A stretch of 35,086 nucleotides of DNA from Bacteroidales bacterium (GTDB taxonomy: Bacteria; Bacteroidota; Bacteroidia; Bacteroidales; VadinHA17). This document shows, piece after piece, positions 1-26,011 of the stretch. Every line of letters starts with the position of its first letter. Position 1 is the stretch's first letter. Position numbers and translations under genes: made by a program. The stretch covers positions 1 through 35,086 of the forward strand of contig JAAYUS010000143.1 of assembly GCA_012517605.1 (NCBI GenBank), in the 5' to 3' direction. The notes under the pieces are model-generated. The model saw nothing but the letters and a program-made list of their open reading frames with translations. It searched no databases and was not told where the DNA came from.

Positions 1-624
1 GACATCTCCTTTGCAATAGATCAGGGGCTGGCAAACAGGATGGAACTCAGGCAGAGGAAGATCGACATCGAATCATCACAATTTGATCTGATCCAGACAA
101 AAGCGCTGAATGAATTCAAGGGAAGCCTTGGCCTCTCAATCGGATTGTTCGGTGACAACGAGAAATTCGGAAACGTCTATTCAAATCCGACGGACAATGA
201 GGAGGTTTCGCTGTCGCTGACAATCCCCCTATGGGACTGGGGTGAAAGGAAATCAAGGATTAAAGCAACTGAAGCGACTATTGAGGCTGCAAATATTTCG
301 TTCGACGAGGAACGGAATGATATCATCCTTGGCATACGGCAGGTTTACCGTAACCTGATAAACCTCAGGAACCAGATTACCATAGCCCGTCAAAATGTCA
401 CAAATGCACAGCTAACCTACGATCTTAATCTCGAGAGGTACAGAAACGGCGATCTTACCGGGATGGACCTTAATCTGTTCCAGGAACAGCTCTCTCAGAA
501 ACAGCTTTCCTATACAAATTCACTTATATCATACAAGCTGGAGCTGCTGAACCTGAAGATCCAGACTCTTTACGATTTCGAGAAAAAAGAACAGGTTTCA
601 CCAGTTATGGAATTGGAAAAATAA
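1..624 (+). CDS. TolC-like outer-membrane efflux protein, C-terminal part (5' end outside window)
   Basis: The reading frame is open from base 1, so the gene begins upstream and only about the last 207 residues are present. In TolC-family proteins this region is the second structural repeat: long amphipathic periplasmic helices around outer-membrane beta strands. The visible pattern fits: a strand-like stretch (LSLTIPLWDWGERKSRI, the usual P-W-D-G-R turn), then a long helix rich in Q, N and L with heptad-like spacing (about residues 85-130), and a final helix with the family-typical 'YDLNLERYRNGDLTGMDL' pattern. The role is the outer-membrane exit duct of a tripartite pump. It lies 13 bp before the adaptor gene and is almost surely co-transcribed with it. 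Which substrate is exported cannot be told from the sequence. Confidence 0.9.
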   Translation, partial: DISFAIDQGLANRMELRQRKIDIESSQFDLIQTKALNEFKGSLGLSIGLFGDNEKFGNVYSNPTDNEEVSLSLTIPLWDWGERKSRIKATEATIEAANISFDEERNDIILGIRQVYRNLINLRNQITIARQNVTNAQLTYDLNLERYRNGDLTGMDLNLFQEQLSQKQLSYTNSLISYKLELLNLKIQTLYDFEKKEQVSPVMELEK

Positions 625-1696: not shown

Positions 1697-4600
1697 ATGG
1701 ACAAAATTGCCAGATTTGCTGTAAACAATCCTGTAACAGTATTGATGCTGGTACTGGGTATCATTCTGCTTGGATTTATTTCTTTCGGCAAGCTGGGGAC
1801 AGACCTTTTCCCTGACCTCAACACTCCCAAGATCTATATAGAATTAAAAGCAGGGGAAAAACCGCCTGAAGAAATCGAAAAAAATTATGTCGATCAGATT
1901 GAATCTCTTTCAATGCGCCAGAGCGACGTTGTTCAGGTATCATCAGTTTCACGAGGCGGATCGGCTGTGATAACTGTGGAATATAACTGGAACAAGGATA
2001 TGGATGAAGCATTTCTTGATCTCCAGAAAGAACTTAATTCATTCAGCCAGAACTCCGACCTTGAAGATTTCACAATTTCACAATACGATCCCAACGCCTC
2101 CCCGGTAATGGTTGTCGGCCTTAAAAACGATCTTATCGAAAATATGGACGACCTGAGAAAGGTCGCTGAAAATTACATCCGCAATGAGCTCATAAGAATA
2201 GAAGGCATCGCCGATGTAAGGCTTGTCGGAAAGGAAGAAAGCGAGGTTGTAATTGAAACAAATAAATACCTTCTGGAATCATTCGGCCTTACCACCGACG
2301 GAATAGCTGCACAGATAAACAATTACAACAGAAATGTTTCGGGCGGATCTATTGTCGACATGGGAACAAAATATGTCGTAAAGGGAGTCAGCGTGCTTGA
2401 AGATCTCAAGGACCTTGAGAACATTGTCGTCGGGTTCAGACAGCCTGCTGCAGCAACAGGAACAGGTCTTACAGAAAGATCAGCAGTATCAGTGACGGAA
2501 AGGGTGCCTGTTTACCTGAGGGATGTCGCTTCAATAAAATTTGAAAACAAGGATCCTGACAACATTGTGACAATTAACGGCGAAAGATGCATAGGACTTG
2601 CTATTTACAAGGAACCTAAATTCAATACTGTCAATGCAGTGCGCAGCCTCGACAGGAGCTTTCAGGATATAGGCAAGGCCATGCCAGGATACCAGTTCAT
2701 TAAAGTGACCGACCAGGGTAAATATATAAGCAATGCCATTGGCGAGGTTAAAAATACACTGATTGCAGGAATAATACTGGCTGTATTGATTCTGTACGTT
2801 TTTCTCCGGAGGATAGGAACTACACTGGTGATAAGCATCGCAATACCCGTTTCCATAATTGCAACTTTTAACCTGATGTATTTCAATGACCTCACCCTGA
2901 ATATAATGACGCTTGGAGGACTTGCCCTTGGAGCAGGCATGCTTGTCGATAATGCGATAGTTGTCCTGGAAAATATAACCCGTAACAAGGAGGAAGGGCT
3001 TTCGTTCAGAGAATCAATTATCACCGGGACAGGACAGGTGGGTGGAGCAATTACGGCTTCAACGGTTACCACGATAATGGTTTTTCTGCCAATAGTTTAC
3101 CTCCATGGCGCTTCAGGCGAGATGTTCAAAGACCAGGCATGGACTGTGGCTTTTGCTCTTTTATCGTCTCTCTTTGTTGCCCTTCTTGTGATTCCCATGC
3201 TGCTTTCTTCACTTTTCCCCGAGAAAAGGCAAAATAAAGTATTAACCTCATCACTACAGTTCAGATGGTATAAGTCTTTCCTTGGAAAGATAGTGGATCA
3301 TCGTAAAACTGTCATTGTCCTGTCGGTTATTATGCTTGCTCTTTCCGCCCTTATTGTCCCTCAGCTAGGAAGCGAGTTCATGCCAAAATCCGAATCGGCC
3401 GAGTTCACTGTATCACTTAAGCTGCCTGAAGGTACAGGGCTTGAAAGGACAAACAGCACAGCCGTCAGGGCCGAAGGGATAATAAAGGACCTGCTGGGAC
3501 CAAAAGTTAAATTGTTATATACCCAGGCAGGAGAAGACAATACATCAACACTAATTCAGAATAACGGGGTAAAAGGAGAAAATACTGCATCCATAAAGGT
3601 CATCCTGAATGAAGAATATGCAAAAGAAACTGAAAAAGCGATAAGCCTGGTCGAGAGCTACCTTACAACCATTCCCGGCCTTGAAGTTACATTTACAAGA
3701 GAGGAAACTGCACTCCAGACATCACTCGGAACATCCGAATCCCCCTTTGCCCTTGAAATATCCGGAGAAGATTATTCAGAACTTGAAAGGATACTTCAGG
3801 AATCAAAGTCAGTTCTGGTAAATAATCCAGGACTTTATAATCTTACAACCTCCCTTGATGAGGGGACTCCGGAAGTGGATGTTGTAATCGACAGGTTCAA
3901 AACAAGCTATTACAATGTGACTGCTGAAAGCGTTATAAATCAGATCAGGGGCTATCTTCAGGGATCACCCGCAGGGACTTTTGAAAAAGACGGTGAAATG
4001 AAGGACATTACTATAAAACTCGAAAACATTTCTCTGGGTCAGCTCCGCGACCTTATGATAACAGCCGGTACGGTAAAAGTACCTTTGAGCGAACTTGCAG
4101 TGATTAAAAAGGTCATTAGCCCGGGAGAAATTACAAGAAGGAACCAGTCGAGGACATGTTACATTTATGCCATGATTAAGGGCGGCCAGCCACTAGACAA
4201 AGTAGTAAACGAAGCACGTGAATCGCTGAAATCAATAACATTGCCTCCCGACTATAAGATGGAGTTCACCGGAGAGGAGTTGAAAAGAAGGGAATCAACA
4301 TCAAACCTTACGTTTGCTCTGATCCTGTCGCTTGTACTGGTATTTATGGTGCTTGCCTCACAATTCGAATCCATCCTTCAGCCTTTTGTTATTATGTTAA
4401 CAATACCTCTTGCAGGCGTCGGAACCATCCTGACATTTTTCATTCTGGGCAAGCCTCTTAATATGATGGCATATATCGGTATAATAATGCTTGGGGGAAT
4501 AGCCGTGAACAATGCAATTATTCTTATCGACAGGATAAATCAGCTGCGGGAGGCAGGGATCAGTAAAAGAGAAGCAATATTATTGGCAGGGTCGCAGAGA

Positions 4601-4831
4601 ATAAGACCGATACTTATGACAAGCCTTACAACTATACTTGCCCTGCTGCCGCTTACGATCGGGATCGGTGAAAGCGCTTCACTGCGTTCCCCGATGGCAT
4701 ATGCGGTAATCGGAGGACTTGTCTCATCAACAATTCTTACACTTGTGGTAATACCCTGCGTTTATTGGGTATTCGATACGTTCGGGGATTTTATTCGCGG
4801 AAAGAAAACAAACCTTTCTGAAACTGTCTGA
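1697..4831 (+). CDS. RND efflux transporter permease (AcrB/MdtB superfamily)
   Basis: A 1044-residue inner-membrane pump of normal RND length with the standard layout: TM1 at about 8-30, a large periplasmic loop, TM2-6 at about 350-510, TM7 near 540, a second periplasmic loop, and TM8-12 at about 870-1030. The TM4 motif GMLVDNAIVVLENI carries Asp418, the position of AcrB Asp407, but the next residue is Asn rather than a second Asp. In TM10 the segment AVNNAIILID has Asn938-Asn939 where AcrB has Lys940, with Asp945 a little further on. This V-N-N-A...D pattern is common in a large RND subgroup, so it marks subfamily rather than damage. It starts 6 bp after the adaptor and ends 16 bp before the second RND gene. 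Paired RND genes recall MdtB/MdtC, where the two permeases form a mixed trimer; that is only an analogy here. Confidence 0.95.
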   Translation: MDKIARFAVNNPVTVLMLVLGIILLGFISFGKLGTDLFPDLNTPKIYIELKAGEKPPEEIEKNYVDQIESLSMRQSDVVQVSSVSRGGSAVITVEYNWNKDMDEAFLDLQKELNSFSQNSDLEDFTISQYDPNASPVMVVGLKNDLIENMDDLRKVAENYIRNELIRIEGIADVRLVGKEESEVVIETNKYLLESFGLTTDGIAAQINNYNRNVSGGSIVDMGTKYVVKGVSVLEDLKDLENIVVGFRQPAAATGTGLTERSAVSVTERVPVYLRDVASIKFENKDPDNIVTINGERCIGLAIYKEPKFNTVNAVRSLDRSFQDIGKAMPGYQFIKVTDQGKYISNAIGEVKNTLIAGIILAVLILYVFLRRIGTTLVISIAIPVSIIATFNLMYFNDLTLNIMTLGGLALGAGMLVDNAIVVLENITRNKEEGLSFRESIITGTGQVGGAITASTVTTIMVFLPIVYLHGASGEMFKDQAWTVAFALLSSLFVALLVIPMLLSSLFPEKRQNKVLTSSLQFRWYKSFLGKIVDHRKTVIVLSVIMLALSALIVPQLGSEFMPKSESAEFTVSLKLPEGTGLERTNSTAVRAEGIIKDLLGPKVKLLYTQAGEDNTSTLIQNNGVKGENTASIKVILNEEYAKETEKAISLVESYLTTIPGLEVTFTREETALQTSLGTSESPFALEISGEDYSELERILQESKSVLVNNPGLYNLTTSLDEGTPEVDVVIDRFKTSYYNVTAESVINQIRGYLQGSPAGTFEKDGEMKDITIKLENISLGQLRDLMITAGTVKVPLSELAVIKKVISPGEITRRNQSRTCYIYAMIKGGQPLDKVVNEARESLKSITLPPDYKMEFTGEELKRRESTSNLTFALILSLVLVFMVLASQFESILQPFVIMLTIPLAGVGTILTFFILGKPLNMMAYIGIIMLGGIAVNNAIILIDRINQLREAGISKREAILLAGSQRIRPILMTSLTTILALLPLTIGIGESASLRSPMAYAVIGGLVSSTILTLVVIPCVYWVFDTFGDFIRGKKTNLSETV

Positions 4832-4847
4832 TTCATACAGGAAAGAT

Positions 4848-7800
4848 ATGGATTTTGTACTAAAGAGAAGAGTTCTGATAACGATGGTCTTTCTGGGACT
4901 GTCGCTTCTGGGATACGTTTCCTATAAAAAGCTACCTGTTGAACTTATCCCGAATGCCCAGCTACCTGCACTGATAGTTCAGGTTGGAACACCACTGGAA
5001 CTCGATCCTTCCTATATTGAAAATCAGGCTGTCGTACCTATTGAAGGCGCTGTAGGGACACTGGAAAATGTGGAAAAAATAGAATCAAACATTACCTCAC
5101 AGTATGGCACCATCATTATTTATTATACAAAAAACTCCGACCTTAAATATGCAAACCTCCGGCTTCAGGAAAAAATCGACATTGTAAAAAGCACAATACC
5201 TTCAGAATTCATTATCAACGTGATAAAAATCGACCTGGAGCAGCTGAGCAACCAGTTCATGTCGCTTCAGGTAAGAGGTGAAGGAGGAATAGACAGAATT
5301 CGCAATATCGCTGACCGTGAAATAAAGCCGGAGTTTGAAAATATCGATGGCATAGCAGGTGTCCAGGTTTATGGCGGACAGGAAAATTCAGTTGAGGTAA
5401 GGCTTAACCGGAAAGCCTGCAAAGCACTCGGAATAACCCCTGGACAGATAAGCCAGGTGCTGAATAATAACAGCAGCGACAAAACTTTTGCCGGAAAAGT
5501 GTATGACGGAAGCGATGAGCTTTTTGTGAATATTTCTTCAGAATATACGGATATAACGGATATCGGAAATATAATAGTCAGGCAGCAGGGGCCTGTCCTG
5601 CTTCACGATGTTGCCGAAATATTCTATGGCGTCAGGGAAAGGCAGTCGTACAGCAGGGTCAACGGAATGGATGCCGTAACTATGACGCTTGTAAATGACA
5701 ACCAGGCAAATCTTATACAGCTTTCACACGATGCGATCGATCAGGTAAACAAGCTTAACAGGGAACTGGCTTCTTCAGGTGTCGGGATCGTTGTTCAGAA
5801 CAACAGCGCTGAAACAATGGAAAAGAATATCGATCAGATCATAAATCTCGCGATAACCGGAGGTTTCCTGGCAGTACTTATACTCTGGTATTTTCTCAGG
5901 AATATCAGACTTGTCACAATAATTGCCGTATCAATACCAGCATCGGTTTATACGGCATTCAATTTCTTCTATGCATATAATATTTCCATAAACAGCCTTA
6001 CCCTTGTCGGAATAGCCCTGGCAATAGGTATGCTGGTTGATAACTCGGTGGTGGTGCTCGAGAATATTTACAGGCTTGCAGGTACGGGCAAGGATCCGGG
6101 AACAGCGGTAAAACAGGGGACCAAAGAAGTGTGGCGCTCAATCCTGGCTTCCACGCTGACAACTGTGATCGTTTTCTTTCCTTTTATATTCTCAACAAAC
6201 TTCCTAATAAGGATAATAGGGAAAAATATAGGAGTTTCACTCGTATCAACACTTCTTGTATCCCTTGCAGTGGCATTGTTCTTTATACCCATGGCCACTT
6301 TTTATCTTCTTTCCGGGACCTCATCAGGCGAGGCCCGGATATTTAAGAAGTTGTCAATCCACGACAGGCTGATCCAGGCTTATCACCTTGTACTCAAGGC
6401 GAGCATGAGGAAACCTGCTGCAACAATAATCGGGACGCTTGTGGTCTTCTTTACTGCCCTCCTGATAAGTCTTACCCTCAGCATCAGCAGCAACCGTGAA
6501 ATTCAGACGCCGGAGTTCAGGCTAAGCATCACAATGCCTGCAGGTTCAACATTACGGAAGACAGATGCAGTTGTTGCAGAGATCGAATCGCGGCTTGCCT
6601 CACTTCCCGAAAAGGAAGATGTAGTGAGCAGGATTGAAGAGGACAAAGCTACAGTAACGGTGAACCTCTTCAAGGACTGGGATAAAAGGAGTGAGAGGTC
6701 GCTGCCGGAAATCAAAAACGATATTTCAGAAAGAACAAAGAATATTTCATCGGCTGAGATAAGCATGGATGAGATATCTACAGGCGGCGGATTTACAGGA
6801 GGTGGCGGCGGAGGTGAATCATTCAATCCGGAAAATGATTTTGCAAATCTCCTGGGCTTCGGAAGCGAATCCGAGAAAGTTGTTATCAGGGGCCAGAATT
6901 TCCAACAGATGCGAAACCTGGCCGGAGATATCAGGAATTACATTGATGCCCTTGAAACGATCGACAATGTCAGCGCCGGCATTCAGGACAACACCCCTGA
7001 AGTACAGCTGCATTTTGACATGGATTACCTGGGTCGCAATAACTTCACACTGATGAACCTTTCTGCAGCCCTTGCTACTTTTGGAAGAGAATATTCATCG
7101 GGAGCCAGATTCAGGCAGGGAACCCAGAGTTACGATATAATCATCAAATATGCCGATGAAGACACAACCTCCGCTGTAAACGATTTCAAGACGATCAACG
7201 ACCTTAAACATCTCGAGGTCTCAAGTTCGTCAGGAGTTGTAATGGAGATGGAGGAACTTGCCAGTACTGTATTCTCATACGGGATGGGGAACATCCACCG
7301 CGAAAACCAGGAAAAGAGAATAACAGTTACATATAACTTCAAGGATGAGATCAGATCATCGAAAGACCTGCTCGAAGGAGCAAGAGCTGAAATTGAATCA
7401 ATAATTTCCGGACTTAACATTCCTTCAGGACTTGTCGTCGAGGTTATCCATGAAGATAACCAGCTGAAGGAATTTTACAATCTCATTGGGATAGCTTTTC
7501 TGCTTATTTATATGATCCTTGCTGCAGTATTTGAATCTCTTGCAATACCTTTTGTCCTTCTGTTCAGCATACCTCTTGCTGCACTTGGCTCGCTTATAGC
7601 GCTTATACTGACAGGCAATTCACTGCTGAATGCAAATACCCTTACCGGATTCCTTATCCTGCTTGGCGTTGTTGTCAATAATGGGATCATCCTTATCGAT
7701 TATACAAACATCCTAAGAAAAAGAGGCTTCAGAAGGTCAAGAGCTCTGATGACAGCCGGAATGGCAAGGATAAGGCCAATTCTTATTACAGCATCAACGA

Positions 7801-9599
7801 CCGTAATTGCCATGCTGCCTCTTGCCCTGGGAAAAGCTGAATATGTCTCGGCAATAGGCGCTTCCTTTGCTATTACCGTTATAGGAGGCCTTACGCTGAG
7901 TACACTGCTGACGCTTATTTTTATCCCCACATTCTATTCAGGTCTGGAAAACTCCATCGACTGGATCAAATCACTTAACTGGAAGATAAAAGTTGTCCAA
8001 CTTATGGTATTTGGCTTGATGATATTGCTGATCTACACATATATTGACAAATTCATCTGGAAACTGATAACAACAATATTAGCTGTCATAATTGTTCCGT
8101 CTGCAACCTGGTTTGTGATGAACAGCCTCCGAAAAGCCAGGGAAACAGTGATCCCGCCTGATCAGAGTATCAATATCCGGATTCAGAACCTGGTAAAGAT
8201 TTATGAAAGGGAAAGCAGATGGTCGAGAGAATGGAAAGCAGGAGCCAGGATAAGGGAACGTCTCGGACTTCAGGTACATTACAGGAAATTGAGTGACCTG
8301 ACTCAGATAACCTGGCAGTTCCCGCTGCTTGTTTTCATGATATGGTTCACTTACTTCTACCTTCAAAAAGGATTCTGGATTTTCTTTTTTAGTGTGGTCA
8401 CATGGTTTTTCATCCTTTCAATCTGGAACCGCTTCAGGGAACTTTTCCGTAATATGAGTGCGGAAAATGGAAAGAAACAATTTAAAAGGATAATCGCTGT
8501 TTCCGACTCATTTGTTTTCTGGATAATTCCACTTTTCAACCTTTTGCTGTTCCAGATGAAATGGGATAATATTTCGGTTGTACTCATAACCGGATTTGTC
8601 TGGTTCACAGGGTTGTTCATTTACACAACCGGAAGAAAGCTCAGTGAAGAAAACATTGACATATACAGGCTTGAGGGAAGGTTCCGGGGTATCAGGAAAA
8701 CAGTTTATAAGATTGTTTCAGCTGTCCCGCTAATAGGTAAAAGAAAAAAGCCTTTCAAAGCATTAAGCAGCGTTTCGATAAATATCGGCAATGGTATGTT
8801 TGGCCTCCTTGGGCCTAATGGAGCAGGCAAGACCACACTCATGAGGATAATCTGCGGCATACTGGAACAGAGTTACGGGAAGGTGTGGATAAATGGGCTC
8901 GATACCCAGAAAAAGCGCGAGGAACTGCAGGGACTTATTGGATACCTTCCGCAGGAATTCGGAAGCTATGAAAACATGACTGCTCACGAATACCTGCATT
9001 ACCAGGCTATCCTGAAGAACATTACCGATGCCGCAACAAGGGAAGAAAGGGTCACCTATGTCCTGAAAGCTGTCCACATGGAGGAAAGGAGACATGAAAA
9101 GATCGGCTCTTATTCAGGTGGCATGAAACAGAGAATGGGGATCGCCCTTATCCTGCTTCATCTTCCAAGGATACTTGTTGTTGATGAACCGACTGCCGGC
9201 CTCGATCCAAGAGAAAGGATAAGGTTCAGGAATCTCCTCGTCGAGCTTAGCCGTGAAAGGGTGGTGATTTTCTCTACACACATAATTGAAGATATCTCAA
9301 GCTCATGCAATCAGGTGGCGGTTCTGAACAGAGGCCGACTGAGATATCTGGGCAGGCCGTCTGATATGACCCTGCAGGCGGAAGGACATGTATGGCAGTT
9401 TAAAATACCTTCCGAGGAGTTCGGGAAATTCGTTGAGGATCATCTTGTCGTTCACCACATGTCGGAAGGCGATCAGGTCAGAGTCAGAGTGATATCTGAA
9501 TCCAGGCCCCGCGACAATGCGGTTAATGCAACCCCTAACCTCGAGGATGCATATCTTTGGTTATTAAGAAAAAAGGATAACAACAGGCATGAAAACTGA
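4848..9599 (+). CDS. RND efflux permease fused to a membrane-ABC ATPase module (1583 aa)
   Basis: One uninterrupted reading frame joins two transporter types. Residues 1-1032 form a complete RND permease: TM1 at about 8-28, TM2-6 at 330-490, TM7 at 522-545, TM8-12 at 875-1030, Asp398 in GMLVDNSVVVLENI, Asn944-Asn945 and Asp951 in VVVNNGIILID, and a Gly-rich periplasmic linker near 645-656. Two more hydrophobic segments follow at about 1046-1066 and 1073-1094. Residues 1110-1120 (IRIQNLVKIYE) look like the first strand of an ABC ATPase. Then four membrane segments intervene (about 1158-1262) before the domain resumes at 1303 (FKALSSVSINIGNGMFG). The ATPase motifs are intact: Walker A GPNGAGKTT 1322-1330, signature YSGGMKQR 1422-1429, Walker B ILVVDEPT 1442-1449 and H-loop His1478. 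The stop overlaps the downstream permease start by 11 bp. Each domain call is firm; joint function is inference. Confidence 0.92.
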   Translation: MDFVLKRRVLITMVFLGLSLLGYVSYKKLPVELIPNAQLPALIVQVGTPLELDPSYIENQAVVPIEGAVGTLENVEKIESNITSQYGTIIIYYTKNSDLKYANLRLQEKIDIVKSTIPSEFIINVIKIDLEQLSNQFMSLQVRGEGGIDRIRNIADREIKPEFENIDGIAGVQVYGGQENSVEVRLNRKACKALGITPGQISQVLNNNSSDKTFAGKVYDGSDELFVNISSEYTDITDIGNIIVRQQGPVLLHDVAEIFYGVRERQSYSRVNGMDAVTMTLVNDNQANLIQLSHDAIDQVNKLNRELASSGVGIVVQNNSAETMEKNIDQIINLAITGGFLAVLILWYFLRNIRLVTIIAVSIPASVYTAFNFFYAYNISINSLTLVGIALAIGMLVDNSVVVLENIYRLAGTGKDPGTAVKQGTKEVWRSILASTLTTVIVFFPFIFSTNFLIRIIGKNIGVSLVSTLLVSLAVALFFIPMATFYLLSGTSSGEARIFKKLSIHDRLIQAYHLVLKASMRKPAATIIGTLVVFFTALLISLTLSISSNREIQTPEFRLSITMPAGSTLRKTDAVVAEIESRLASLPEKEDVVSRIEEDKATVTVNLFKDWDKRSERSLPEIKNDISERTKNISSAEISMDEISTGGGFTGGGGGGESFNPENDFANLLGFGSESEKVVIRGQNFQQMRNLAGDIRNYIDALETIDNVSAGIQDNTPEVQLHFDMDYLGRNNFTLMNLSAALATFGREYSSGARFRQGTQSYDIIIKYADEDTTSAVNDFKTINDLKHLEVSSSSGVVMEMEELASTVFSYGMGNIHRENQEKRITVTYNFKDEIRSSKDLLEGARAEIESIISGLNIPSGLVVEVIHEDNQLKEFYNLIGIAFLLIYMILAAVFESLAIPFVLLFSIPLAALGSLIALILTGNSLLNANTLTGFLILLGVVVNNGIILIDYTNILRKRGFRRSRALMTAGMARIRPILITASTTVIAMLPLALGKAEYVSAIGASFAITVIGGLTLSTLLTLIFIPTFYSGLENSIDWIKSLNWKIKVVQLMVFGLMILLIYTYIDKFIWKLITTILAVIIVPSATWFVMNSLRKARETVIPPDQSINIRIQNLVKIYERESRWSREWKAGARIRERLGLQVHYRKLSDLTQITWQFPLLVFMIWFTYFYLQKGFWIFFFSVVTWFFILSIWNRFRELFRNMSAENGKKQFKRIIAVSDSFVFWIIPLFNLLLFQMKWDNISVVLITGFVWFTGLFIYTTGRKLSEENIDIYRLEGRFRGIRKTVYKIVSAVPLIGKRKKPFKALSSVSINIGNGMFGLLGPNGAGKTTLMRIICGILEQSYGKVWINGLDTQKKREELQGLIGYLPQEFGSYENMTAHEYLHYQAILKNITDAATREERVTYVLKAVHMEERRHEKIGSYSGGMKQRMGIALILLHLPRILVVDEPTAGLDPRERIRFRNLLVELSRERVVIFSTHIIEDISSSCNQVAVLNRGRLRYLGRPSDMTLQAEGHVWQFKIPSEEFGKFVEDHLVVHHMSEGDQVRVRVISESRPRDNAVNATPNLEDAYLWLLRKKDNNRHEN

Positions 9600-10305
9600 A
9601 ACTGTAATTAACTATTTTATCCTGGTATGGAAGATGATCCTTTATAATCTGAGGATAATCTTCGCCAATAAGTTCATCTGGTTTCTGGGCGGATCTGTAC
9701 TTTTCTATCTTGGATTGTCGGTTATCTATGTTTTTTCAAACGACATTTCAAGGGTTTCAGACCTTTATGGCGTCTTCATTTTTTCGGGTATTCTGCTTGT
9801 ATTCTATCCTTCGGTGTTTGGGATCCAGAACGATCAGGATGCACGGACCATAGAGATCCTTTTCGGGATACCAGATTACCGTTACAAGGTCTGGCTTGTA
9901 AGGATCATACTGATTTTCGTGATTGCATGGCTGATACTGCTGGCATTCACTTCCCTTTCCTCGTTCCTGATAGTGAAATTCCAGGTATTCAGGGTAACGG
10001 CACAGGTAATGTATCCTGTTCTTTTTCTCGGGATGATGGCATTTATGCTCTCAACAGTGATAAGGAATGGTAACGGGACTGCTGTTGCCATGATAATTTT
10101 CGGCCTCTTTTTCCTGATACTCGAGGATCCCCTCCGTAAGAGCCAGTGGAATATATTTCTTAATCCTTACGATCCTCCCTTTGATGTGAATGAAACGACT
10201 TGGGTTATAATAACTTTTAAAAACAGAATTATCCTGATCACCGGAACCATCCTTTTCCTTCTGGCAGCTTTGTTCAACCTTCAGAAAAGGGAAAAATTCA
10301 TGTGA
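9589..10305 (+). CDS. ABC-2-type transporter permease, small
   Basis: A 238-residue integral membrane protein with six predicted membrane segments at about 30-50, 60-79, 103-128, 139-157, 163-179 and 212-230. Between TM2 and TM3 lies NDQDARTIEILFGIPDYRYK, which resembles the cytoplasmic coupling region of ABC-2 permeases (a charged R-T-x-E-x-L segment followed by a P-x-x-R turn before TM3). The ATG at 9589 lies inside the end of the upstream RND-ABC gene, in another frame, so the two are probably translationally coupled and work together: the fused ATPase would drive this permease. It closes the operon; the repeat region starts just after its stop. Family assignment rests on topology, the coupling region and context rather than on a diagnostic motif. 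Confidence 0.8.
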   Translation: MKTETVINYFILVWKMILYNLRIIFANKFIWFLGGSVLFYLGLSVIYVFSNDISRVSDLYGVFIFSGILLVFYPSVFGIQNDQDARTIEILFGIPDYRYKVWLVRIILIFVIAWLILLAFTSLSSFLIVKFQVFRVTAQVMYPVLFLGMMAFMLSTVIRNGNGTAVAMIIFGLFFLILEDPLRKSQWNIFLNPYDPPFDVNETTWVIITFKNRIILITGTILFLLAALFNLQKREKFM

Positions 10306-10325: not shown

Positions 10326-10560
10326 GAGCAAAACCCCGACAGCGTTAAATGTGTAAAACCACAATAACATCATTCAGTGAAAAAACGCAACAGAGGTAAA
10401 TATGTAAAACCACATTAGCATCATTTGGTGAAAAACCGCAACAGCGGTAAGTGTGTAAAACCACAATAGCATAATATGGTGAAAAACCGCAACAGCGGTA
10501 AATGTGTAAAACCACATTAGCATCATTTGGTGAAAAACCGCGACAGCGGTTTAATATGAA
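10326..10560. repeat. 51-bp direct tandem repeat array, about 4.5 units, each with a small hairpin
   Basis: Units begin at 10326, 10377, 10428, 10479 and 10530 with a strict 51-bp spacing. A unit reads roughly GTGAAAAACCGCAACAGCGG, then TAAATGTGTAAAACCACA, then TTAGCATCATTTG. Each of the better-conserved units contains ACCGC-AACA-GCGGT, a 5-bp stem with a 4-nt loop. In the last unit it is AACCGC-GACA-GCGGTT (10536-10551), one bp longer. The first unit is the most decayed. The array begins 20 bp after the stop of the ABC permease gene. Because 51 is a multiple of three, the minus strand shows a repetitive 17-residue open frame, which I take to be a by-product. Confidence 0.85.
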
Positions 10561-10585
10561 TAACCGCAGGTGCAACCTGCGGTTA
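10561..10585. repeat. Perfect palindrome, 11-bp arms and 3-nt loop
   Basis: TAACCGCAGGT, GCA, ACCTGCGGTTA: a perfect 11-bp stem with a 3-nt loop. The outer part AACCGC/GCGGTT is the same as the hairpin in the adjacent tandem array. There is no following T-run on the plus strand, so it is not a typical intrinsic terminator, though it could stabilise or end the operon transcript. It resembles REP-type intergenic palindromes. Confidence 0.75.
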
Positions 10586-18404: not shown

Positions 18405-18581
18405 TCAGACACTTTGCCGAATAATGCGATGTGGTTTTCCTCTGGCCGGATAAAAAATCTTTCTCATGCAATGCTCAATCAATGCCTTAATCATGTTTGT
18501 CATGGATAATTCGCGTTTTCTCAGGTATCGTAGTAAAATGAACAGCTCCGGTATAAGAATATCATAAACAGATATGGTCAT
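18405..18581 (-). CDS. Candidate small ORF (58 aa) overlapping the sprA stop
   Basis: An ATG at 18581 overlaps the sprA stop codon in an ATGA arrangement, the usual sign of translational coupling. The frame runs 58 codons to TGA at 18405. The product starts MTISVYDILIPELFILLRYL; it is basic, with a short hydrophobic N-terminal half (ILIPELFILL) and a basic C-terminal half (MRKIFYPARGKPHRIIRQS). I recognise no family. Codon use is not clearly like or unlike the neighbours, and the frame is short enough to be chance. The ATGA coupling is the main support. Confidence 0.25.
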   Translation of the reverse strand: MTISVYDILIPELFILLRYLRKRELSMTNMIKALIEHCMRKIFYPARGKPHRIIRQSV

Positions 18582-21500
18582 TGAGCCAGTGTAAACTTCA
18601 GGCTGAACCCGAAATTTGTATTGGAAGTCGGAAAAGTGTTGGCAACAAACGGATTATTAAGCGTGTGATCTGCAAATATCTGCAAATTGAACCTGTCACT
18701 CAGAACATAATCGGCTGTAGCACCGACAGTGAAAACTCTCATCCCTGCCACCGGCTGGTTTACATCCTCAATAAGCTTTCTGGCAACAGTCTTATTATCC
18801 CTTATTGAAAGATCGAATCTCAGATTCAGGTCGCTTTTAAGTACCTTCTGACCTCCTCCTGTTTTAAGGATTATCTGTACATCATCGAAACGGTATCCGG
18901 CTCCGACTACAAGTTCATTGATCCGGTTGTCGGTAATCTGGTTACCCGTGAGGTTTAGTGAAACGGTCCTAGATTTTCTCCATTCGAACCTTGAAGTCAG
19001 ATTGCTCTTCCAGTTCATGTCGACATTTATCATCGGGCTGAACTGTTCGCTTACAGTCACAACATTTATCTCATATTTCTGGATAAAGTTCTTCTGCATG
19101 TCCCTTATATTATTTATCCCGTTACCATCGGTGAAGTAGTTCAGGTTAGTTGTATAAGAGCCAATCTGATAAACACTCCGGTACTGATGCGTGATATTTA
19201 CAGATCTGAAAACCTTTTTTACAAATTCAAATTTTGAGAATCCGTCGAAGGTGATTCTCCAGTTGGGCATCATCTTCGAAGCTGATGGGAAGGTGGCAAG
19301 AGATACTTTATGAGGGTCAGTCTTTGTATATGCGGAAATGAATGCAGGAATAAGAACTTCCCTCGAAGTACGGCCGTAGCCATTTTTAAAACCTCCCTCC
19401 GGAGGCTTTCCTGTCCCGGGATCAACATCAGGATCATAGCCAGGATCGAGCTCCTTCCTGATTTCGGCTCTTCGTTGTGATATGATTACAGCATTCTTCT
19501 TGAAGTTCTCGAAGGTATTTGATACATAGTTATTGTCCTTCGAGATCTTTTCAAAAGCTGTACCCCAGGAAATTACAGAAATAGAAAAGTTACCCGTAAC
19601 AACTTTATTCCGGGTGCTGTCGGGAAAATGACCATTAATATCGGCTGTATAATACGAACTTTCATTTTCCATGAACCGCCTGTCAGCATTTATATCGATT
19701 TTAAGTCCTGGGAACGGCTCAACGACACTTCGCAGGGAAAGGTCAAGCCTGTTATTGAAAACTGCCGGCATATTTAGGAGTGTATCTGTTGTAATCCAGC
19801 CATTTGAAGCAGCCTTATCAAAGAAATGCCTGTCGGTGAATCCCAGGATGAAAGGCACTCCGGGCGCTGAGACATTATTTGTCCTTGACATTCCAAGGAA
19901 CCTGGCTTCAGGCAGGAATCCCGGAAGATACTGGCCCTGCGATGAGGTATAAGTCAGACTCACGGAACGCACCCCCATAAGCGCACGTATCATATACTCC
20001 CCTGTCACTATTGCCGGATTTCTCTTTTTCGGTATTCTTCCTTCAACTGTGACCTGTGCCCCGTTTACCGTTTCGGATGCGGTAAAATTAACCCTGTTCT
20101 CACTCACTATCTCGAGATTCCCTTTAACTTCGGTCCCGTCCTGCCTGGTGATCCTGACCTTGACATCTTTTGTCTTCAGGTTGTGGGTTATGATCCTCAC
20201 GGCCTTTTCCTTGAAGTTGACATTGTTCCTGGTATACGTAACAGTCTTGTATTCAGTCTTCATCCGTATTGCTGCATCAGGTCTTGCATTGTTCTCGATG
20301 TTTTTCAGGAATTTCGATTTGGCATAAAGGTTTGCCAGGTTACCTGTTGCACTGAAAGTAAGTTCGTTATGGTTTTTGATTGTGTTACCCAGATTTATCT
20401 TCATTGAATCGGGATAAAGGGCTCCGGCCAGCCATGAATAATCGGATCCGAACCTCGCATTGGCGTTCACCCACGAAAGCAGCGGAATCTTGTTAATTGG
20501 AAGGTTGTATGTTACATTAATGAAATGGTTATATGATGTCGTTCGGCCAAAATGCTTAAGGTTAGTGAGCACCGAATCGCGCCAGTTTTCATATTCAGTC
20601 CTGTACCGCTTCTTGTCTGCCGCACCTTCAGGTTCATCAATCCTTGCAATATTTGTTGAGGTAAAATCGATCTTCAGCTGTCGTGTCAGGTCATATTTTA
20701 TATCGAATATCCTTGTCCATTCGAAATCCTTTCGGAACGTTGGCGTGATAAGGAGACCGGGATTATTTATATTTCTTGTTTTTACTTCATTGTAATATCG
20801 GGAAACATCTGTCCTGAATGAAATGCTTTTCGGGAAAGGATAAAAATTAAAATCCTTGATTATCCTGAATATAGGTGAGTTAAGGAATTTCACATTTTTA
20901 AAAGGCATTATGTTTTGCGGCTGAGCCTCGTAGTTGTAATTTATCCCTCCCTTATAGTTTTTCTCAAGATCTATCTCAGTTTTTGTATTACTCCTGTAAG
21001 TCTCGTTGTACGTATAGTTGACACTGAAGTTAGCAAGATCCCAGGCATGTGCTTTCTCTCCCCTCCTGGTGATCCCGGCATTGTTTATCGATATGGTTTT
21101 CCGTCTCGCATAATCTTCAGATATCGATTTTATTGAATCACGCTCCTGTTTTGTTTTTGCCTCTTTAAGTGCATCTTTCAGCGGTATATCAGGATCGAGG
21201 GGATTGTACTGGGGCTTTATTCTTGTTTCAGAGAATCCGGCATAAACAGGAAGCCTAACCCCCGATTCTTCAGGGAAGAATTTCCCAAGCTCCATGGTTG
21301 TTGAAACGTCGTATGTATATGCTTCCTCCTTGCTGCGCTCATTGACCTTTTTGTCAATGCTTCCCCAGCCTGGCGTGCTGGCCTGACCAACCACGTCAAC
21401 CGTTCCAAGATCGGCAAGTTTTGCCTGAAGATGGGCGTTTGCAGCCCAGCCGCCATTTTCGATGAAATCGCTTAATCTCAGTTCATTAACCCACACCTCA

Positions 21501-24500
21501 GCTGATTTGGGATTGCCGGTATCATTGTTCGGATCCCTTGTTCTGATCGGGTTCCTTATCCCGATCATTATCACCTTGATATTGCTGAGATTCGGATTAC
21601 CGCAGACATAAACCCTGTTCGAATCGTCCCTGAAGGCAAAGACATCAGAAAGGCTGAGCGATGATCCTGGTGCATTAAGTTGTCTGTTCCTCTCCTTCTT
21701 TGCTTCCTGCAGGACCGACATTTTAATGTCGAACCGGTTAGCTTCGGGCCAAACAATAGCTCTGTCCTCTTCTGAATTATTGTCGTACTTGTCATTTGGA
21801 GGAGTAAGTTTGAGCGGAACTTCATATTCATAAAAATTCGATTTGTAATCTGTTCCTATCCTTACAAAGGCTGTCAGTTCATTGTCATACAACGGCTGCC
21901 CTATCAGGGCCTCGGCATGCACTTCCATCCTCAGGCTCCTGTACTGACGAACATCAAGATTCACATTCCTGTACGCTGCACGGGCATCCCCGTCGGCCAG
22001 ATCCTGCACTTTCAGCACCATTGATTGTTCATCGAGCTGACGTAGCTGCGGATTCTGGGGATCCACAACCCTGTTGAATCCGGGAGGAAGAACATAGTTG
22101 ACAGGTTTTTTACCTGCATTATCTTCAATACTTACTGAACTTATCTCGAAAGTGCCGTCCTCAGGTTCCGGAATTGTTATTCTTTCTCCACCCTCCATGA
22201 AAGTTATATTGTACTTCCTCCATTCAGCCCTGACAAGATTGAGTTCGGCAAAACGCATAACGACAGGTTCGTTGAAATCCTTCAGGAACATCCTCATGAA
22301 ACGGATCGATTTAAAATCGTTAATGACTCCAACCCTTTTCTGGTATTCAGTAACTGGAATTTTGAACTGATACCATTTTACCTTCGATTCAGAGCCATTG
22401 GCAAGGGTAACTGTGGGTTCTATTTCATCAACGATATAGTTCATACCCACTTTCATGTTCTCGGGCCTGAGACTTATTTTATACTGATAATAACTTTCAG
22501 TTTCACTCAATGTGTTGTCCCTGTTGATGTCTTCCATGTCGGGAAGTGTGGAACCCGTTGTCGGGTATGATTCAGACGACATTGCGGATGTTGGCGAGTT
22601 TCCTTCCTGACCATTGTATTTCTTGTACCTGTCGAGGATCCCCAGTTGCGCGGCATCATAATCCGATCCTCTGAAATAGTGGAAATCATCATTGGCCGGG
22701 TCTTTCAATATTTCGGTAAAGGCATCGGGAGTTGTTATTGCCTGAGCCTTCTGAACATAATCCTGAAAGAATGTCTGCTCATCCTGGTCACGGAGGCCGT
22801 CAAGACCGACATCCTGGTACATGCGCGATTCGGAATTGTTGTCGAATGCATGCACGACCGACTGGACCGTTGGCACACGCCCCCATGAAGTTGTGTCAAC
22901 ATTTATTACGATCGGGGATCCCGGAAGCCCGTTCTCAAAGCTTTTCCGTGAATCACGGAGTATATCCTCAGAGATGTTGCCAAGGTTGAAATAGAGGTCA
23001 CCGCCCTGATGATCGGGCTTTTCAACAAATGGATCCATAAGCCAGAATTCTATATACTGGATATTGGCTGTTTCAAAATCGCTTGTGAGAACCTCCCTCA
23101 TTATTCCTCCCCACCGCGAACGAGGATCATTCAGTTTCCCAGTCTGATTTATGCCTCTTGAATAAGGGCTTGCTTCGATATCAAAGTTATATGGCCCCTT
23201 TTCATCAGGGTAATAAGCAACGTTCAGGATCGAAATTGTGGTTGGGATCCCGCTTGTGCTCTCCCTGTTAGGGAATATTTCATTTTCATATATCTCCCTG
23301 ACAAAGTGGCTGGACTGGGTTTCAGGATCGTTTTTAATATTGGGTGGAGTTGAAGAACCGTTCCTCAGGAAAAGAGGATCGATAACATACCAGGCTATTT
23401 TAGCCCTGTTAAAACCGCTGGCCGGGTCATTGTTGAGCATTGCTTCAGGGAATAGCTGATCCTGTCCCTGGGGTACGCTTGATATTGACCAGGCATTGAA
23501 TGACTTCAGGTCAAGGGGAATTTCACTCGATTCGAAATCGTCGATGTATGAATTGCCTGCATTTGAGATGGCCCTGGAGTGGCCGGGGATCAGGTCGGCG
23601 AACTCCCCATTGAACGAGATGCTTGATGGTGCTTTGGTTTCGAGAAGAGGGATCCTGTCAAGAAGTTTGGTAAGCAGCTGCGACTCACCCCTGTATGAAG
23701 TATTGAGCCCCCATATTGTATTGGATATAGGTTCTTCACCAAAATTAACTTTCTGGGTATATGGCCGCTCATTGAGATGAAGCAGCGTACCTCCGATATT
23801 GAAATTATCGGAGATCTTATAGTCGAGATGCGTGCCAAGCAGTGTCTTGGTCTGGAATCCAAAAAACTGGTTGTTCTCAAGCGAAACCTGGATGGGCGTT
23901 TGCGATTCGATAAGGGCTGAATTGATAATGGTGACGACACCTAAATTATAGTCGACAGTATAATCAGTATTCTCATTGAGTGTAACGCCTCCGGCCGTAA
24001 CCTTTATTGATCCCACGGGTATATTTGTTGCATTCAGCCTTATCTCGGATCCCGATTCGGAAGAATACTGCCCGGTCATCTTGAATTTGTTCCTCTCTGC
24101 CATCTGCCGTGCAACCGTCTGGGTCGAATCATAAAGCTCCTGGAACACATATTTGTCGGCAATGAACTTATCTCCTATCTGACTTCTCAGATAACTGCCG
24201 AAAGGTTCAGTCACGGGAAAAATTATCTTTCCCCTGCTTACCATTACCGTTACTCCGTCGATGAAATCAAAATATCCGTCAGGGATCCTGTCGTTCTGGG
24301 AATTCAGATTGTCAAGGCCGAGAACCTGAAGAAGAACCTTGTTAGCTATCCTGCCTTCAGGAAGATAATTGATGGCATTTCCGGTTTTATCATCCTCATA
24401 AAGAATGTTCATCTGAAAATTACCGCTTTCGAGCCTGCCTGAACCAAGTGAATATATATTTTTCATCATCAGGTTCCATGTAGGATACTTAGGGCTCAGC

Positions 24501-26011
24501 GTGGTTCCCTTCAAAAGCTTCAGAACAAGCGTCTGGGGAGCAGTAATACCGTCGGTCGAGAATTCACCTACTTTGTATATCTGTCCGTTGAGGGTATATT
24601 CAAATGCAACCGCCAGGACTTCATCAGTATTAAGGGCGGTATTGAGTGAGATGTATCCAAGCTGTGAGTTCAGTGTAAACTCACGTTCATTGAGCTTCCG
24701 GGCATTTTCAATCTTTTCAAAATCCCTGCCGATCTGAAAACCGGGATACAATGAACTGAAAGCATTTGTGACCTGATCGACATTGCGTATTGAGGAGTAA
24801 CCCGACTGAAGCTGCGGGTAGAGCTGGTTAGTATTGTTGTCGGGGAATCTCGTCCCTCCTGGTGATGCCTGGAACTGAGGGACCTTGTTAAAGATATGGC
24901 TGCTGTTCTCAGCAAGATCAGCAAATGCCACAATATTCCTTGTCTCTTCATAACTGCTTGTCTTATTGGTGATCCAGACTTCTATCCGGGTGATGTTGAG
25001 TCCGGAGCTGACTGCAGGAAGGCTCCTTAGGGCGTCGTTGTAGATATCCCTGAAATAATGTGACAGGAAGAAGTGGCGGTTGGCCTCATAGTCATCTGCA
25101 TATATTTGGAACTCGCTAATCTGTGCGCCGCCCTTTACATCAATTGTCGAAGTCTCCCCTTTCTGCTGCGAAAGTACAGTCGTCACATTCAGCTTCCCGA
25201 ACTGCATCTCTGTCTTCAGGCCGAAAAGGCTGTAGCTTCCGGTGATAAGAGTTCCCGGAAGGGGCAGAGTGACATCACCTGCCTCAACTTTTTTGATTAT
25301 CTCATCCTCCTTGCCGGCATACTGCAGCTTTGTCCTGTTCTCGAATTCAAACATTGCATCGGTATTGTAATTTACACCAAGCTGCATTTTGTCACCAATA
25401 GTACCGGTGACATTCATCTGTATTTTCTCCTTGAAGTCAAAAGTCGGAATTGTCCGCAACTTTTCTGAAAGGGTCGGGTTTTGAGTGCGTGATATATTGA
25501 TGCCGAATATAAGTTCTGCTGATCCCTGGGGTATAATGTTTATAACGTTGCTTCCGAATATCTTATCGAAAGTTGCGCCTCCTATTTCAATCTGTGGTAT
25601 CAGGTTTGATCTGAATCCTGCTGACTCGCCGGATATCCTCGACTGCCAGTAATCACGCATTTCTTTGTTGTACTGATATTTGCGAAATTCCTCAGGTGAC
25701 ATGCGGACAGGTGTCCTGTAATCAAATTCTCCGACTTTCTGATAAATAACATATTCGTTCTTATCAGTATCATAAACAACTGTCGATTTTATATTTGAGG
25801 GATTATAAAGAAACAGGGGAGCTTTGGGGGCCGGATCATAAGGATTTCCCGATACATCTTTAAGCCGCAGCGGTGATTTTCGTATTGTATCTGTCTGGGA
25901 AGTGCCTGAAGATGCCTGACCATTTGCCTCGGTTGACCTCAGGACAAGAGAAGCGAATATGACAATAAAAGAAAATTTCAGCAGATTATTATATGATAAC
26001 TCTGATCCCAA
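18578..26011 (-). CDS. sprA: SprA, outer-membrane translocon of the type IX secretion system
   Basis: SprA is the very large outer-membrane beta barrel through which type IX secretion substrates leave the cell; it was found as a gliding motility protein in Flavobacterium. The 2477-residue product is close to the family's usual 2300-2500. It has an N-terminal signal (LLKFSFIVIFASLVLRS, then EANGQA) and many beta-strand-rich repeats. Recognisable SprA stretches include QIEIGGATFDKIFGSNVINI, GIRNPIRTRDPNNDTG and SAEVWVNELRLSDF. It ends with an aromatic-rich barrel strand pattern (NFGFSLKFTLAQ). No ATG exists before residue 92; the only start that keeps the signal peptide is TTG at 26011, 18 bp after ruvA. 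Other T9SS genes are not in the window. Confidence 0.97.
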   Translation of the reverse strand: MGSELSYNNLLKFSFIVIFASLVLRSTEANGQASSGTSQTDTIRKSPLRLKDVSGNPYDPAPKAPLFLYNPSNIKSTVVYDTDKNEYVIYQKVGEFDYRTPVRMSPEEFRKYQYNKEMRDYWQSRISGESAGFRSNLIPQIEIGGATFDKIFGSNVINIIPQGSAELIFGINISRTQNPTLSEKLRTIPTFDFKEKIQMNVTGTIGDKMQLGVNYNTDAMFEFENRTKLQYAGKEDEIIKKVEAGDVTLPLPGTLITGSYSLFGLKTEMQFGKLNVTTVLSQQKGETSTIDVKGGAQISEFQIYADDYEANRHFFLSHYFRDIYNDALRSLPAVSSGLNITRIEVWITNKTSSYEETRNIVAFADLAENSSHIFNKVPQFQASPGGTRFPDNNTNQLYPQLQSGYSSIRNVDQVTNAFSSLYPGFQIGRDFEKIENARKLNEREFTLNSQLGYISLNTALNTDEVLAVAFEYTLNGQIYKVGEFSTDGITAPQTLVLKLLKGTTLSPKYPTWNLMMKNIYSLGSGRLESGNFQMNILYEDDKTGNAINYLPEGRIANKVLLQVLGLDNLNSQNDRIPDGYFDFIDGVTVMVSRGKIIFPVTEPFGSYLRSQIGDKFIADKYVFQELYDSTQTVARQMAERNKFKMTGQYSSESGSEIRLNATNIPVGSIKVTAGGVTLNENTDYTVDYNLGVVTIINSALIESQTPIQVSLENNQFFGFQTKTLLGTHLDYKISDNFNIGGTLLHLNERPYTQKVNFGEEPISNTIWGLNTSYRGESQLLTKLLDRIPLLETKAPSSISFNGEFADLIPGHSRAISNAGNSYIDDFESSEIPLDLKSFNAWSISSVPQGQDQLFPEAMLNNDPASGFNRAKIAWYVIDPLFLRNGSSTPPNIKNDPETQSSHFVREIYENEIFPNRESTSGIPTTISILNVAYYPDEKGPYNFDIEASPYSRGINQTGKLNDPRSRWGGIMREVLTSDFETANIQYIEFWLMDPFVEKPDHQGGDLYFNLGNISEDILRDSRKSFENGLPGSPIVINVDTTSWGRVPTVQSVVHAFDNNSESRMYQDVGLDGLRDQDEQTFFQDYVQKAQAITTPDAFTEILKDPANDDFHYFRGSDYDAAQLGILDRYKKYNGQEGNSPTSAMSSESYPTTGSTLPDMEDINRDNTLSETESYYQYKISLRPENMKVGMNYIVDEIEPTVTLANGSESKVKWYQFKIPVTEYQKRVGVINDFKSIRFMRMFLKDFNEPVVMRFAELNLVRAEWRKYNITFMEGGERITIPEPEDGTFEISSVSIEDNAGKKPVNYVLPPGFNRVVDPQNPQLRQLDEQSMVLKVQDLADGDARAAYRNVNLDVRQYRSLRMEVHAEALIGQPLYDNELTAFVRIGTDYKSNFYEYEVPLKLTPPNDKYDNNSEEDRAIVWPEANRFDIKMSVLQEAKKERNRQLNAPGSSLSLSDVFAFRDDSNRVYVCGNPNLSNIKVIMIGIRNPIRTRDPNNDTGNPKSAEVWVNELRLSDFIENGGWAANAHLQAKLADLGTVDVVGQASTPGWGSIDKKVNERSKEEAYTYDVSTTMELGKFFPEESGVRLPVYAGFSETRIKPQYNPLDPDIPLKDALKEAKTKQERDSIKSISEDYARRKTISINNAGITRRGEKAHAWDLANFSVNYTYNETYRSNTKTEIDLEKNYKGGINYNYEAQPQNIMPFKNVKFLNSPIFRIIKDFNFYPFPKSISFRTDVSRYYNEVKTRNINNPGLLITPTFRKDFEWTRIFDIKYDLTRQLKIDFTSTNIARIDEPEGAADKKRYRTEYENWRDSVLTNLKHFGRTTSYNHFINVTYNLPINKIPLLSWVNANARFGSDYSWLAGALYPDSMKINLGNTIKNHNELTFSATGNLANLYAKSKFLKNIENNARPDAAIRMKTEYKTVTYTRNNVNFKEKAVRIITHNLKTKDVKVRITRQDGTEVKGNLEIVSENRVNFTASETVNGAQVTVEGRIPKKRNPAIVTGEYMIRALMGVRSVSLTYTSSQGQYLPGFLPEARFLGMSRTNNVSAPGVPFILGFTDRHFFDKAASNGWITTDTLLNMPAVFNNRLDLSLRSVVEPFPGLKIDINADRRFMENESSYYTADINGHFPDSTRNKVVTGNFSISVISWGTAFEKISKDNNYVSNTFENFKKNAVIISQRRAEIRKELDPGYDPDVDPGTGKPPEGGFKNGYGRTSREVLIPAFISAYTKTDPHKVSLATFPSASKMMPNWRITFDGFSKFEFVKKVFRSVNITHQYRSVYQIGSYTTNLNYFTDGNGINNIRDMQKNFIQKYEINVVTVSEQFSPMINVDMNWKSNLTSRFEWRKSRTVSLNLTGNQITDNRINELVVGAGYRFDDVQIILKTGGGQKVLKSDLNLRFDLSIRDNKTVARKLIEDVNQPVAGMRVFTVGATADYVLSDRFNLQIFADHTLNNPFVANTFPTSNTNFGFSLKFTLAQ

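Follow-up and report, generated by a model that had tools for sequence, protein, structure and literature searches.

The stretch of DNA analyzed here (hereinafter the window; 35,086 nucleotides of contig JAAYUS010000143.1 from a Bacteroidales bacterium) contains a single open reading frame (4848-9599, + strand, from ATG to TGA) that encodes, in one chain of 1583 amino acids, an RND permease and an ABC ATPase. Such an architecture raises the question whether the fusion is genuine and, if so, how an ATPase that is expected to act in a dimer can be accommodated by a pump that is expected to be a trimer.

Fusion of an RND permease with an ABC ATPase

Comparison of the fusion protein with Pfam models yields ACR_tran at residues 2-1031 (model positions 3-1018 of 1021, E 2.3e-157) and ABC_tran at residues 1315-1450 (E 4.2e-27). 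The first of these matches covers nearly the full model, in agreement with the earlier note on this locus, which had placed a complete RND permease at residues 1-1032; this part, denoted RND2, is predicted by homology to contain 12 transmembrane (TM) segments. When the sequences of solved structures were searched separately with the RND half and with the C-terminal part, the names among the best 60 matches were those of RND or efflux-pump proteins for the former and ABC-type for the latter. Between positions 7930 and 8820, the frame contains no stop codons, whereas the two alternative frames contain 26 and 15, and the motifs of the ATPase, namely Walker A, the signature YSGGM, Walker B with its DEP, and the H-loop, are intact. 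Thus, the domain matches and the conserved frame bear out the unusual combination of an RND permease with an intact ABC ATPase that had been proposed from the sequence. The fusion gene can be partitioned as follows (NBD2 denotes the fused ATPase, AF2 AlphaFold2).

4848..7943, + strand: RND2 domain, residues 1-1032 (ACR_tran at 2-1031; matches MdtB, ZneA and AcrB chains)
7944..8162, + strand: two extra TM helices, residues 1033-1105 (hydropathy; AF2 helices at model positions 13-33 and 37-66)
8163..8213, + strand: predicted first strand of the ATPase and A-loop (LVKIY), residues 1106-1122 (AF2 strand; PSSM; K-x-Y)
8214..8747, + strand: predicted four-TM-helix insertion inside the ATPase, residues 1123-1300 (hydropathy; AF2 helices; spacing between A-loop and Walker A)
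8748..9599, + strand: rest of NBD2, residues 1301-1583, and stop codon (ABC_tran; Foldseek against ABC ATPases)
8811..8834, + strand: Walker A, GPNGAGKT, residues 1322-1329
9111..9125, + strand: ABC signature, YSGGM (sequence motif)
9171..9191, + strand: Walker B, ILVVDEP, with the DEP motif, residues 1442-1448
9273..9284, + strand: H-loop, STHI, residues 1476-1479

The fusion protein is 68-82% identical over its whole length to nine aligned congeners. The pN/pS ratio against the nearest relative (L002, 82% identical) is 0.07-0.2 in every segment including the junction, with 0.14 at residues 1000-1140, by crude counts in which synonymous sites are near saturation. Among 41 genomes searched, namely that of the source organism and 40 relatives, the fusion or its RND2 lineage was detected in 21, comprising 18 of the 25 in the genus (source genome counted) and 3 of the 16 from other families of the order; in several of these 21 genomes, the gene is spread over contig ends, and in G038 the contig stops inside the RND part.

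In named genomes, a scan gave at least 597 stretches, of which 593 were confirmed and the best 80 loci taken; 64 of the 80 belong to the fusion family and 16 are ordinary ATPases. RND2 and NBD2 lie in one frame in 59 of the 64 family loci, and this frame spans at least 1500 codons in 51. Seven of the eight shorter one-frame loci are located at contig ends, and in the eighth (L080) a stop codon cuts the RND half off as a piece of its own. As for the remaining five, the contig ends before the ATPase in L068 and L071 and starts after the RND part in L099 and L102, and only L075 is split. Separation of the two halves into different genes in relatives, which the earlier note named among the findings that would refute its proposal, was accordingly seen in one of the 64 loci (L075), against 51 unbroken fusions. 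Judging by record titles, the full-length fusions come from Bacteroidota isolates and metagenome-assembled genomes (MAGs), a Chlorobiota MAG (L048), candidate division KSB1 (L081, L097, L103) and Krumholzibacteriia (L057), and partial fusions from Calditrichaeota (L080) and Latescibacterota (L092); among the named isolate genomes are those of Prolixibacter bellariivorans, Bacteroides faecis, Marivirga sericea and Butyricimonas synergistica. The 1432-codon frame of G375 was discarded as a further case, since on inspection by eye it resembles a frame that is long by chance in GC-rich DNA, lying ahead of an ordinary ATPase.

The fused ATPases group together as a single clade in the ATPase tree (60 sequences, support 100/99), and the rows from KSB1 and Latescibacterota diverge first within it; the bootstrap of this tree is not settled, and its outgroup ATPases include long branches that meet. 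Another clade (29 sequences, support 100/95) consists of a stand-alone ATPase, NBD1, that is discussed below, and the mutual position of the two clades is weakly supported (41/61). Across the phylum, the fusion was found in 6 of 392 sampled genomes (at least 90% complete, source genome counted, the best three candidates per genome scored); hence its distribution is patchy, and most of the phylum live without it. The source is a fragmented, metagenome-type assembly of 269 contigs, which is all that favors an assembly or frameshift artefact joining two genes; given the 51 separate full-length frames, some of them from named isolate genomes, such an artefact has a negligible probability, and the stop-free frame together with the conserved congeners rules out a frameshift in particular.

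The ATPase and its membrane insert

Between the RND permease and the ATPase, the earlier note had recognized six further hydrophobic segments. All six were recovered by hydropathy; they do not, however, form one block but are split 2 + 4 around the first strand of the ATPase. The possibility that the six segments represent an ABC permease of their own was therefore rejected, given that two precede the ATPase and four interrupt it, and the likely ABC-2-like permease is instead the product of the next gene.

Several observations bear on this arrangement. In a contiguous ABC ATPase, the A-loop is located about 20 residues ahead of Walker A. The ABC-family matches shown for the fusion protein (Pfam and NCBIfam) start only at residues 1294-1315, which implies that the first strand of the ATPase is absent from its usual place. 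In the AlphaFold2 model of residues 1033-1583 (52 sequences, mean pLDDT 86, pTM 0.72), residues 1110-1119 (model positions 78-87) are predicted to form a ten-residue strand, and because all elements listed between this strand and the one starting at 1303 are helical, strand 1110-1119 would have to pair with the later strands of the ATPase. By hydropathy and in the model alike, two TM helices precede the strand and four follow it. A Foldseek search with the C-terminal model retrieved ABC ATPases (best match 4yer_A, E 1.1e-20).

Furthermore, a 12-residue first-strand profile was derived from 31 rows of stand-alone ATPases with 30 distinct sequences, one of the rows (L102) being a cut fusion piece that is mis-anchored. 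When the profile was slid from the end of the RND part to Walker A, the position ending at 1119 ranked first in 58 of 60 fusions, and shuffled stretches reached the score of this position in at most 7% of the shuffles (median 0). The A-loop motif K-x-Y is present there in all 60 fusions, at a distance of 124-219 residues from Walker A, so the ATPase domain is not contiguous, compared to 15-19 residues in 30 of the 31 stand-alone rows (29 in the mis-anchored L102). The natural break in L075 fits the same partition: an approximately 210-base gap splits the gene just before the first strand, with RND2 and two TM helices in one frame and the strand, the insert and the ATPase in the second, which suggests that the latter three travel together. 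(The gap itself, L075 5505-5716, carries an inverted repeat that by eye looks REP-type.) Loops 1096-1152 and 1262-1303 contain 13 and 12 Lys/Arg residues, respectively, and thus appear to fit the cytoplasmic side, as expected.

Together, the model and the sequence comparisons indicate that the ATPase is a single domain interrupted by a four-helix membrane insert, its fold being split because the first strand and A-loop (1110-1119) precede the last four TM segments. If so, the presence of membrane helices between the first and second strands of an ABC ATPase would be an unusual protein architecture. In L087, only 124 residues separate the A-loop from Walker A as opposed to 175-219 in the other fusions, and the insert of this protein may contain fewer helices. 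Walker A, the Q-loop, Walker B and the H-loop are kept across the 60 aligned fusions; the signature was read in 57 of these and has the form F/Y-SGGM, whereas the usual ABC signature begins with Leu.

The operon and its candidate permeases

The genes that surround the fusion in the window include the parts of a tripartite exporter (matches to Pfam OEP and HlyD_D23 and to NCBIfam RND_mfp).

40..624, + strand: TolC-type outer membrane channel, C-terminal part (Pfam OEP; front part on contig G000:C155)
638..1690, + strand: periplasmic adaptor, or membrane fusion protein (NCBIfam RND_mfp TIGR01730, above cut-off)
1697..4831, + strand: RND1, ordinary RND permease, 1044 aa (Pfam ACR_tran, E 5.9e-219)
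9589..10305, + strand: TMD2, probable ABC-2-like permease, 238 aa (AF2, Foldseek; 11-base overlap with the fusion gene)

Contig C155 of the same genome and the window share an exact 141-bp end, both ends lying inside the TolC gene, and C155 carries the front of TolC, the gene TMD1 (a frame of 1145 codons) and the ATPase gene NBD1 (a frame of 306 codons). The conserved gene order is NBD1 - TMD1 - TolC - adaptor - RND1 - RND2::NBD2 - TMD2, with NBD1 of about 297 aa and TMD1 of about 1090-1310 aa, where unbroken, in relatives. All seven genes are present in this order in 37 of the 59 fusion loci drawn from the best 80, a count that includes four loci with broken TMD1 or TolC frames (L052, L060, L070, L072) and one with a broken RND2 (L080); six further fusion loci possess all genes but NBD1 within the available stretch. 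Complete operons thus each encode two ATPases and two putative permeases (2 + 2), the assignment of the permeases being weak. TMD2 follows the fusion in 57 of the 59 loci; the contig ends in L092, and no TMD2 was recognized downstream of the fusion in L097. Among the 64 family loci, NBD1 adjoins TMD1 wherever NBD1 is present; TMD1 is unlinked from the fusion in L065, where it resides elsewhere in the genome, and NBD1 and TMD1 are divergent in L103.

The fusion and both candidate permeases are, moreover, jointly present or absent. TMD1 was detected in 20 of the 21 fusion genomes among the 41 (the exception, G035, is 61% complete) and, at E below 1e-30, in none of the non-fusion genomes (Fisher 8e-11; a G020 match at 5e-4 was dropped). 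TMD2 is likewise found in 20 of the 21 fusion genomes, the missing case, G038, ending at a contig edge. A TMD1 match was also obtained in 9 of the 10 genomes behind loci with linkage gaps, the genome of L081 being the one of these 10 searched that yielded none. A congener without the fusion, G019, contains a 57-residue match to the TMD2 C-terminus (G019:C142:40116-40286), which is either a remnant or a contig effect.

With respect to the wider neighborhood, genes for LpxA-like, LpxC-FabA/Z, LpxD and HD-domain proteins are divergent from NBD1 (L031 549-5150; L039 5528-10134); they were annotated with Pfam in one congener, and similar frames are seen by eye in the source genome. These neighbors are a possible hint at an envelope-lipid role. 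The frames downstream of the operon in 16 other loci, compared by size and strand, vary in both, so the neighbors give no clear lead to the substrate. In the window, the gap between TMD2 and the next gene contains, just after TMD2, a tandem repeat with 51-base spacing (10330-10584, four 102-nt copies in register, 64-100% identity). Farther away, a 2477-codon protein (18578-26011, - strand) matches Pfam SprA_N (motility related/secretion protein); we take it to be a component of type IX secretion or gliding.

TMD2 of the window has no Pfam match; the ABC2_membrane Pfam models are each matched by only 4-5 of 56 TMD2 relatives (best 1.9e-05), and Acyl_transf_3 by 7 of the 56 (best 0.0017). For the AlphaFold2 model of TMD2 (pLDDT 90, 56 sequences), Foldseek ranks 1-25 are ABC transporters by title, apart from one titled only 'mycobacterial efflux pump', with probabilities of 0.75-1.00 but E values of only 0.055 to 1.3, none at 0.001; the best structural matches are PmtCD, ABCG5/G8, ABCG2, ABCG25 and NosDFY (E 0.055 and worse). 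On these structural and sequence grounds, the product of 9589-10305 is probably an ABC-2-like permease. TMD1 combines an N-terminal part that matches ABC2_membrane_2 below the cut-off (E 0.00065), a middle part resembling M1 aminopeptidases (profile match E 5e-05) and a golvesin/xanthan-lyase-like domain at the end; the large M1-like and golvesin-like part is presumably periplasmic. The HExxH zinc site is absent in 38 of the 39 TMD1 proteins of at least 1000 aa, the sole occurrence being at residue 401 in L080. Aligned with hhalign, the TMD1 and TMD2 profiles show no match (probability 0.3%), and the idea of a recent duplication accordingly finds no support. It appears likely from the model and the profile matches that both are ABC-2 permeases. 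The best NCBIfam match of NBD1 is drrA, below the cut-off.

A proposed export machine and its relation to known systems

We propose, with confidence that does not go beyond an even balance, that an ABC-2 exporter of heterodimeric type, joined to an RND pump made of two different subunits, delivers its cargo to a single adaptor/TolC exit; an envelope lipid or a compound of that kind is the probable substrate. Under this proposal, NBD2 would hang under RND2 by the two TM helices, be anchored to the membrane by the four-helix insert and pair with the stand-alone NBD1, and the two ATPases would drive the two ABC-2-like permeases, TMD2 and TMD1. The substrate, probably an amphiphile of the envelope such as a lipid, would be carried by the resulting heterodimer across the inner membrane or extracted from it; the heterodimer would be kept beside a mixed RND1/RND2 trimer, which would take the substrate up on the periplasmic side and pass it to the single adaptor and TolC channel. 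If RND1 and RND2 occur at a 2:1 ratio, as in MdtB2C, each trimer would carry a single NBD2 arm, enough to form one ABC exporter together with NBD1. The second ATPase and second permease genes are not on the window but upstream in the same operon, on C155, and their presence suggests an answer to the stoichiometry puzzle raised by the earlier note: two ATPases and two permeases would make one exporter, and the mixed trimer would carry a single ATPase arm. Speaking against the proposal are the dissimilar TMD1 and TMD2 profiles, the weak matches of TMD2 to ABC-2 permeases, the exceptions L065, L103, L081 and L097, and the rarity of the fusion in the phylum. We infer the pairing and ratio of the subunits, the order of events with the hand-over, and the substrate; in the available part of a study of the B. 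thetaiotaomicron iron regulon, none of the RND and ABC genes could be mapped to this operon (PMC10434189).

Alternatively, two separate homodimeric ABC exporters, NBD1 with TMD1 and NBD2 with TMD2, might share the operon, the fusion merely keeping the second of them near the RND trimer. The constant adjacency of NBD1 and TMD1, the position of TMD2 right after the fusion, the unlinked arrangements in L065 and L103 and the dissimilarity of the two permease profiles would all be natural under such a scheme. Nevertheless, we regard it as unlikely because the fusion, TMD1 and TMD2 co-occur across the 41 genomes with few, explicable misses, and because an all-RND2 trimer would force three ATPases into dimers. 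Somewhat more improbable, in our assessment, is a passive tether, whereby the fusion would only ensure that two pumps handling the same substrate are made together and stay close to each other, their energetics remaining independent. Although the natural split in L075 implies that the covalent link is not always needed, this is a single locus of the 64, the fused ATPases are a single clade kept across several phyla, and an insert within the ATPase fold exceeds the needs of a tether.

A further reading is that NBD2, by binding and hydrolyzing ATP, directly gates or mechanically drives the RND trimer, TMD2 being a coupling subunit rather than a transport path. This would resemble the mechanotransmission proposed for MacB, and the predicted layout, with the ATPase tied to RND2 by six membrane helices, four of them inside the fold, would suit force transfer. 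The proton relay is relevant in this context. We take the AcrB-type relay positions to be D407, D408, K940, R971 and T978; the best solved sequence match for both RND1 and RND2 is the MdtB chain 9lyq_B, and the positions in RND2 were read from the MdtB alignment. RND2 has Asn (47) or Ser/Thr (6) in place of D408 in the 53 covering sequences and Asn in place of K940 in the 57 of 60 that were read, which favors direct drive; yet all 53 retain Asp at the D407 position, i.e., one Asp of TM4, and R974 and T981 are present in 60 of 60. Moreover, the same TM4 D-N pattern is found in 28 of the 30 RND1 copies read by pattern (24 of 54 were not read), and ZneA, a working pump, also lacks both residues in the alignments shown. 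The RND2 pattern is therefore not taken to show a loss of proton coupling, and with a conserved ABC-2-like permease in the operon, transport is the simpler reading; direct drive thus seems to us distinctly improbable.

Returning to the heterodimeric exporter joined to the RND pump, one could tentatively go further and envisage a dual-energy transporter, in which ATP hydrolysis and proton flow act in sequence on the same substrate and the motion of the ATPase is passed through the membrane to the RND trimer. We consider this possible but rather doubtful. Tripartite exporters are sorted by engine into ABC, RND and MFS types (as described in PMC8277102), and a dual-energy transporter, if real, would be a class outside all three and would allow the cooperation of ABC and RND proteins suspected in mycobacterial lipid export to be put to a direct physical test.

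Among known systems, MdtABC-TolC is similar in that two RND genes accompany one adaptor gene, and its trimer is reported as B2C (PMC4338810); it differs in having no ABC parts, whereas RND2 of the fusion is extended by an ATPase and by six TM segments beyond the 12 predicted by homology. MacAB-TolC likewise combines an ABC engine with an adaptor and TolC, but in MacB the ATPase shares a chain with its own permease (PMC8277102), and the system has no RND. Here the NBD is C-terminal and attached to an RND permease, unlike the MacB layout with its N-terminal NBD, and there is no MacB model among the Pfam and NCBIfam matches shown (5 Pfam; best 25 of 193 NCBIfam). RND::TolC fusions of the CzcA type also extend an RND chain with a C-terminal domain. 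A case from the same order, G039, was considered as another RND-ABC fusion and rejected, because by eye it looks like a CzcA-TolC fusion: its 1475-codon RND frame (L126 977-5401) has an end that looks TolC-like, so that the added part is an apparent outer membrane channel rather than an ATPase, and its RND match to the fusion protein shows 25% identity.

A precedent for the partnership of ABC and RND proteins is the mycobacterial export of PDIM, for which we know of no TolC-type channel. There, a type V ABC exporter with two permeases, DrrABC, is needed together with an RND protein; DrrA, DrrB and DrrC are each reported to be required, as is MmpL7 (PMC11539658). MmpL7 is described as being without a canonical proton relay and as probably scaffolding DrrABC, for which the authors of that study state that they lack direct evidence (PMC11539658). 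In contrast to the operon analyzed here, these proteins are encoded by separate genes, the RND protein is of the MmpL type, and the reported model includes two copies of DrrA, whereas here two different ATPases are encoded, one of them fused to an RND permease. The fusion would thus build a contact like that of DrrABC with MmpL7 into the covalent structure.

A full-text literature search, in which titles and the starts of abstracts were inspected and which lay outside preprints and most subscription journals, returned no description of an RND-ABC covalent link, of the split ATPase or of the seven-gene unit. The component parts are known; as far as the searched literature shows, it is these three features that are new. 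In Bacteroidota of the gut and the environment, as well as in deeper lineages, two engines are encoded within what looks like one machine and in part within a single chain; such a natural, covalently fixed system could be used to examine whether an RND pump can receive substrate from an ABC exporter, a question also raised by DrrABC and MmpL7, and it would constitute a new class if energy coupling were shown.
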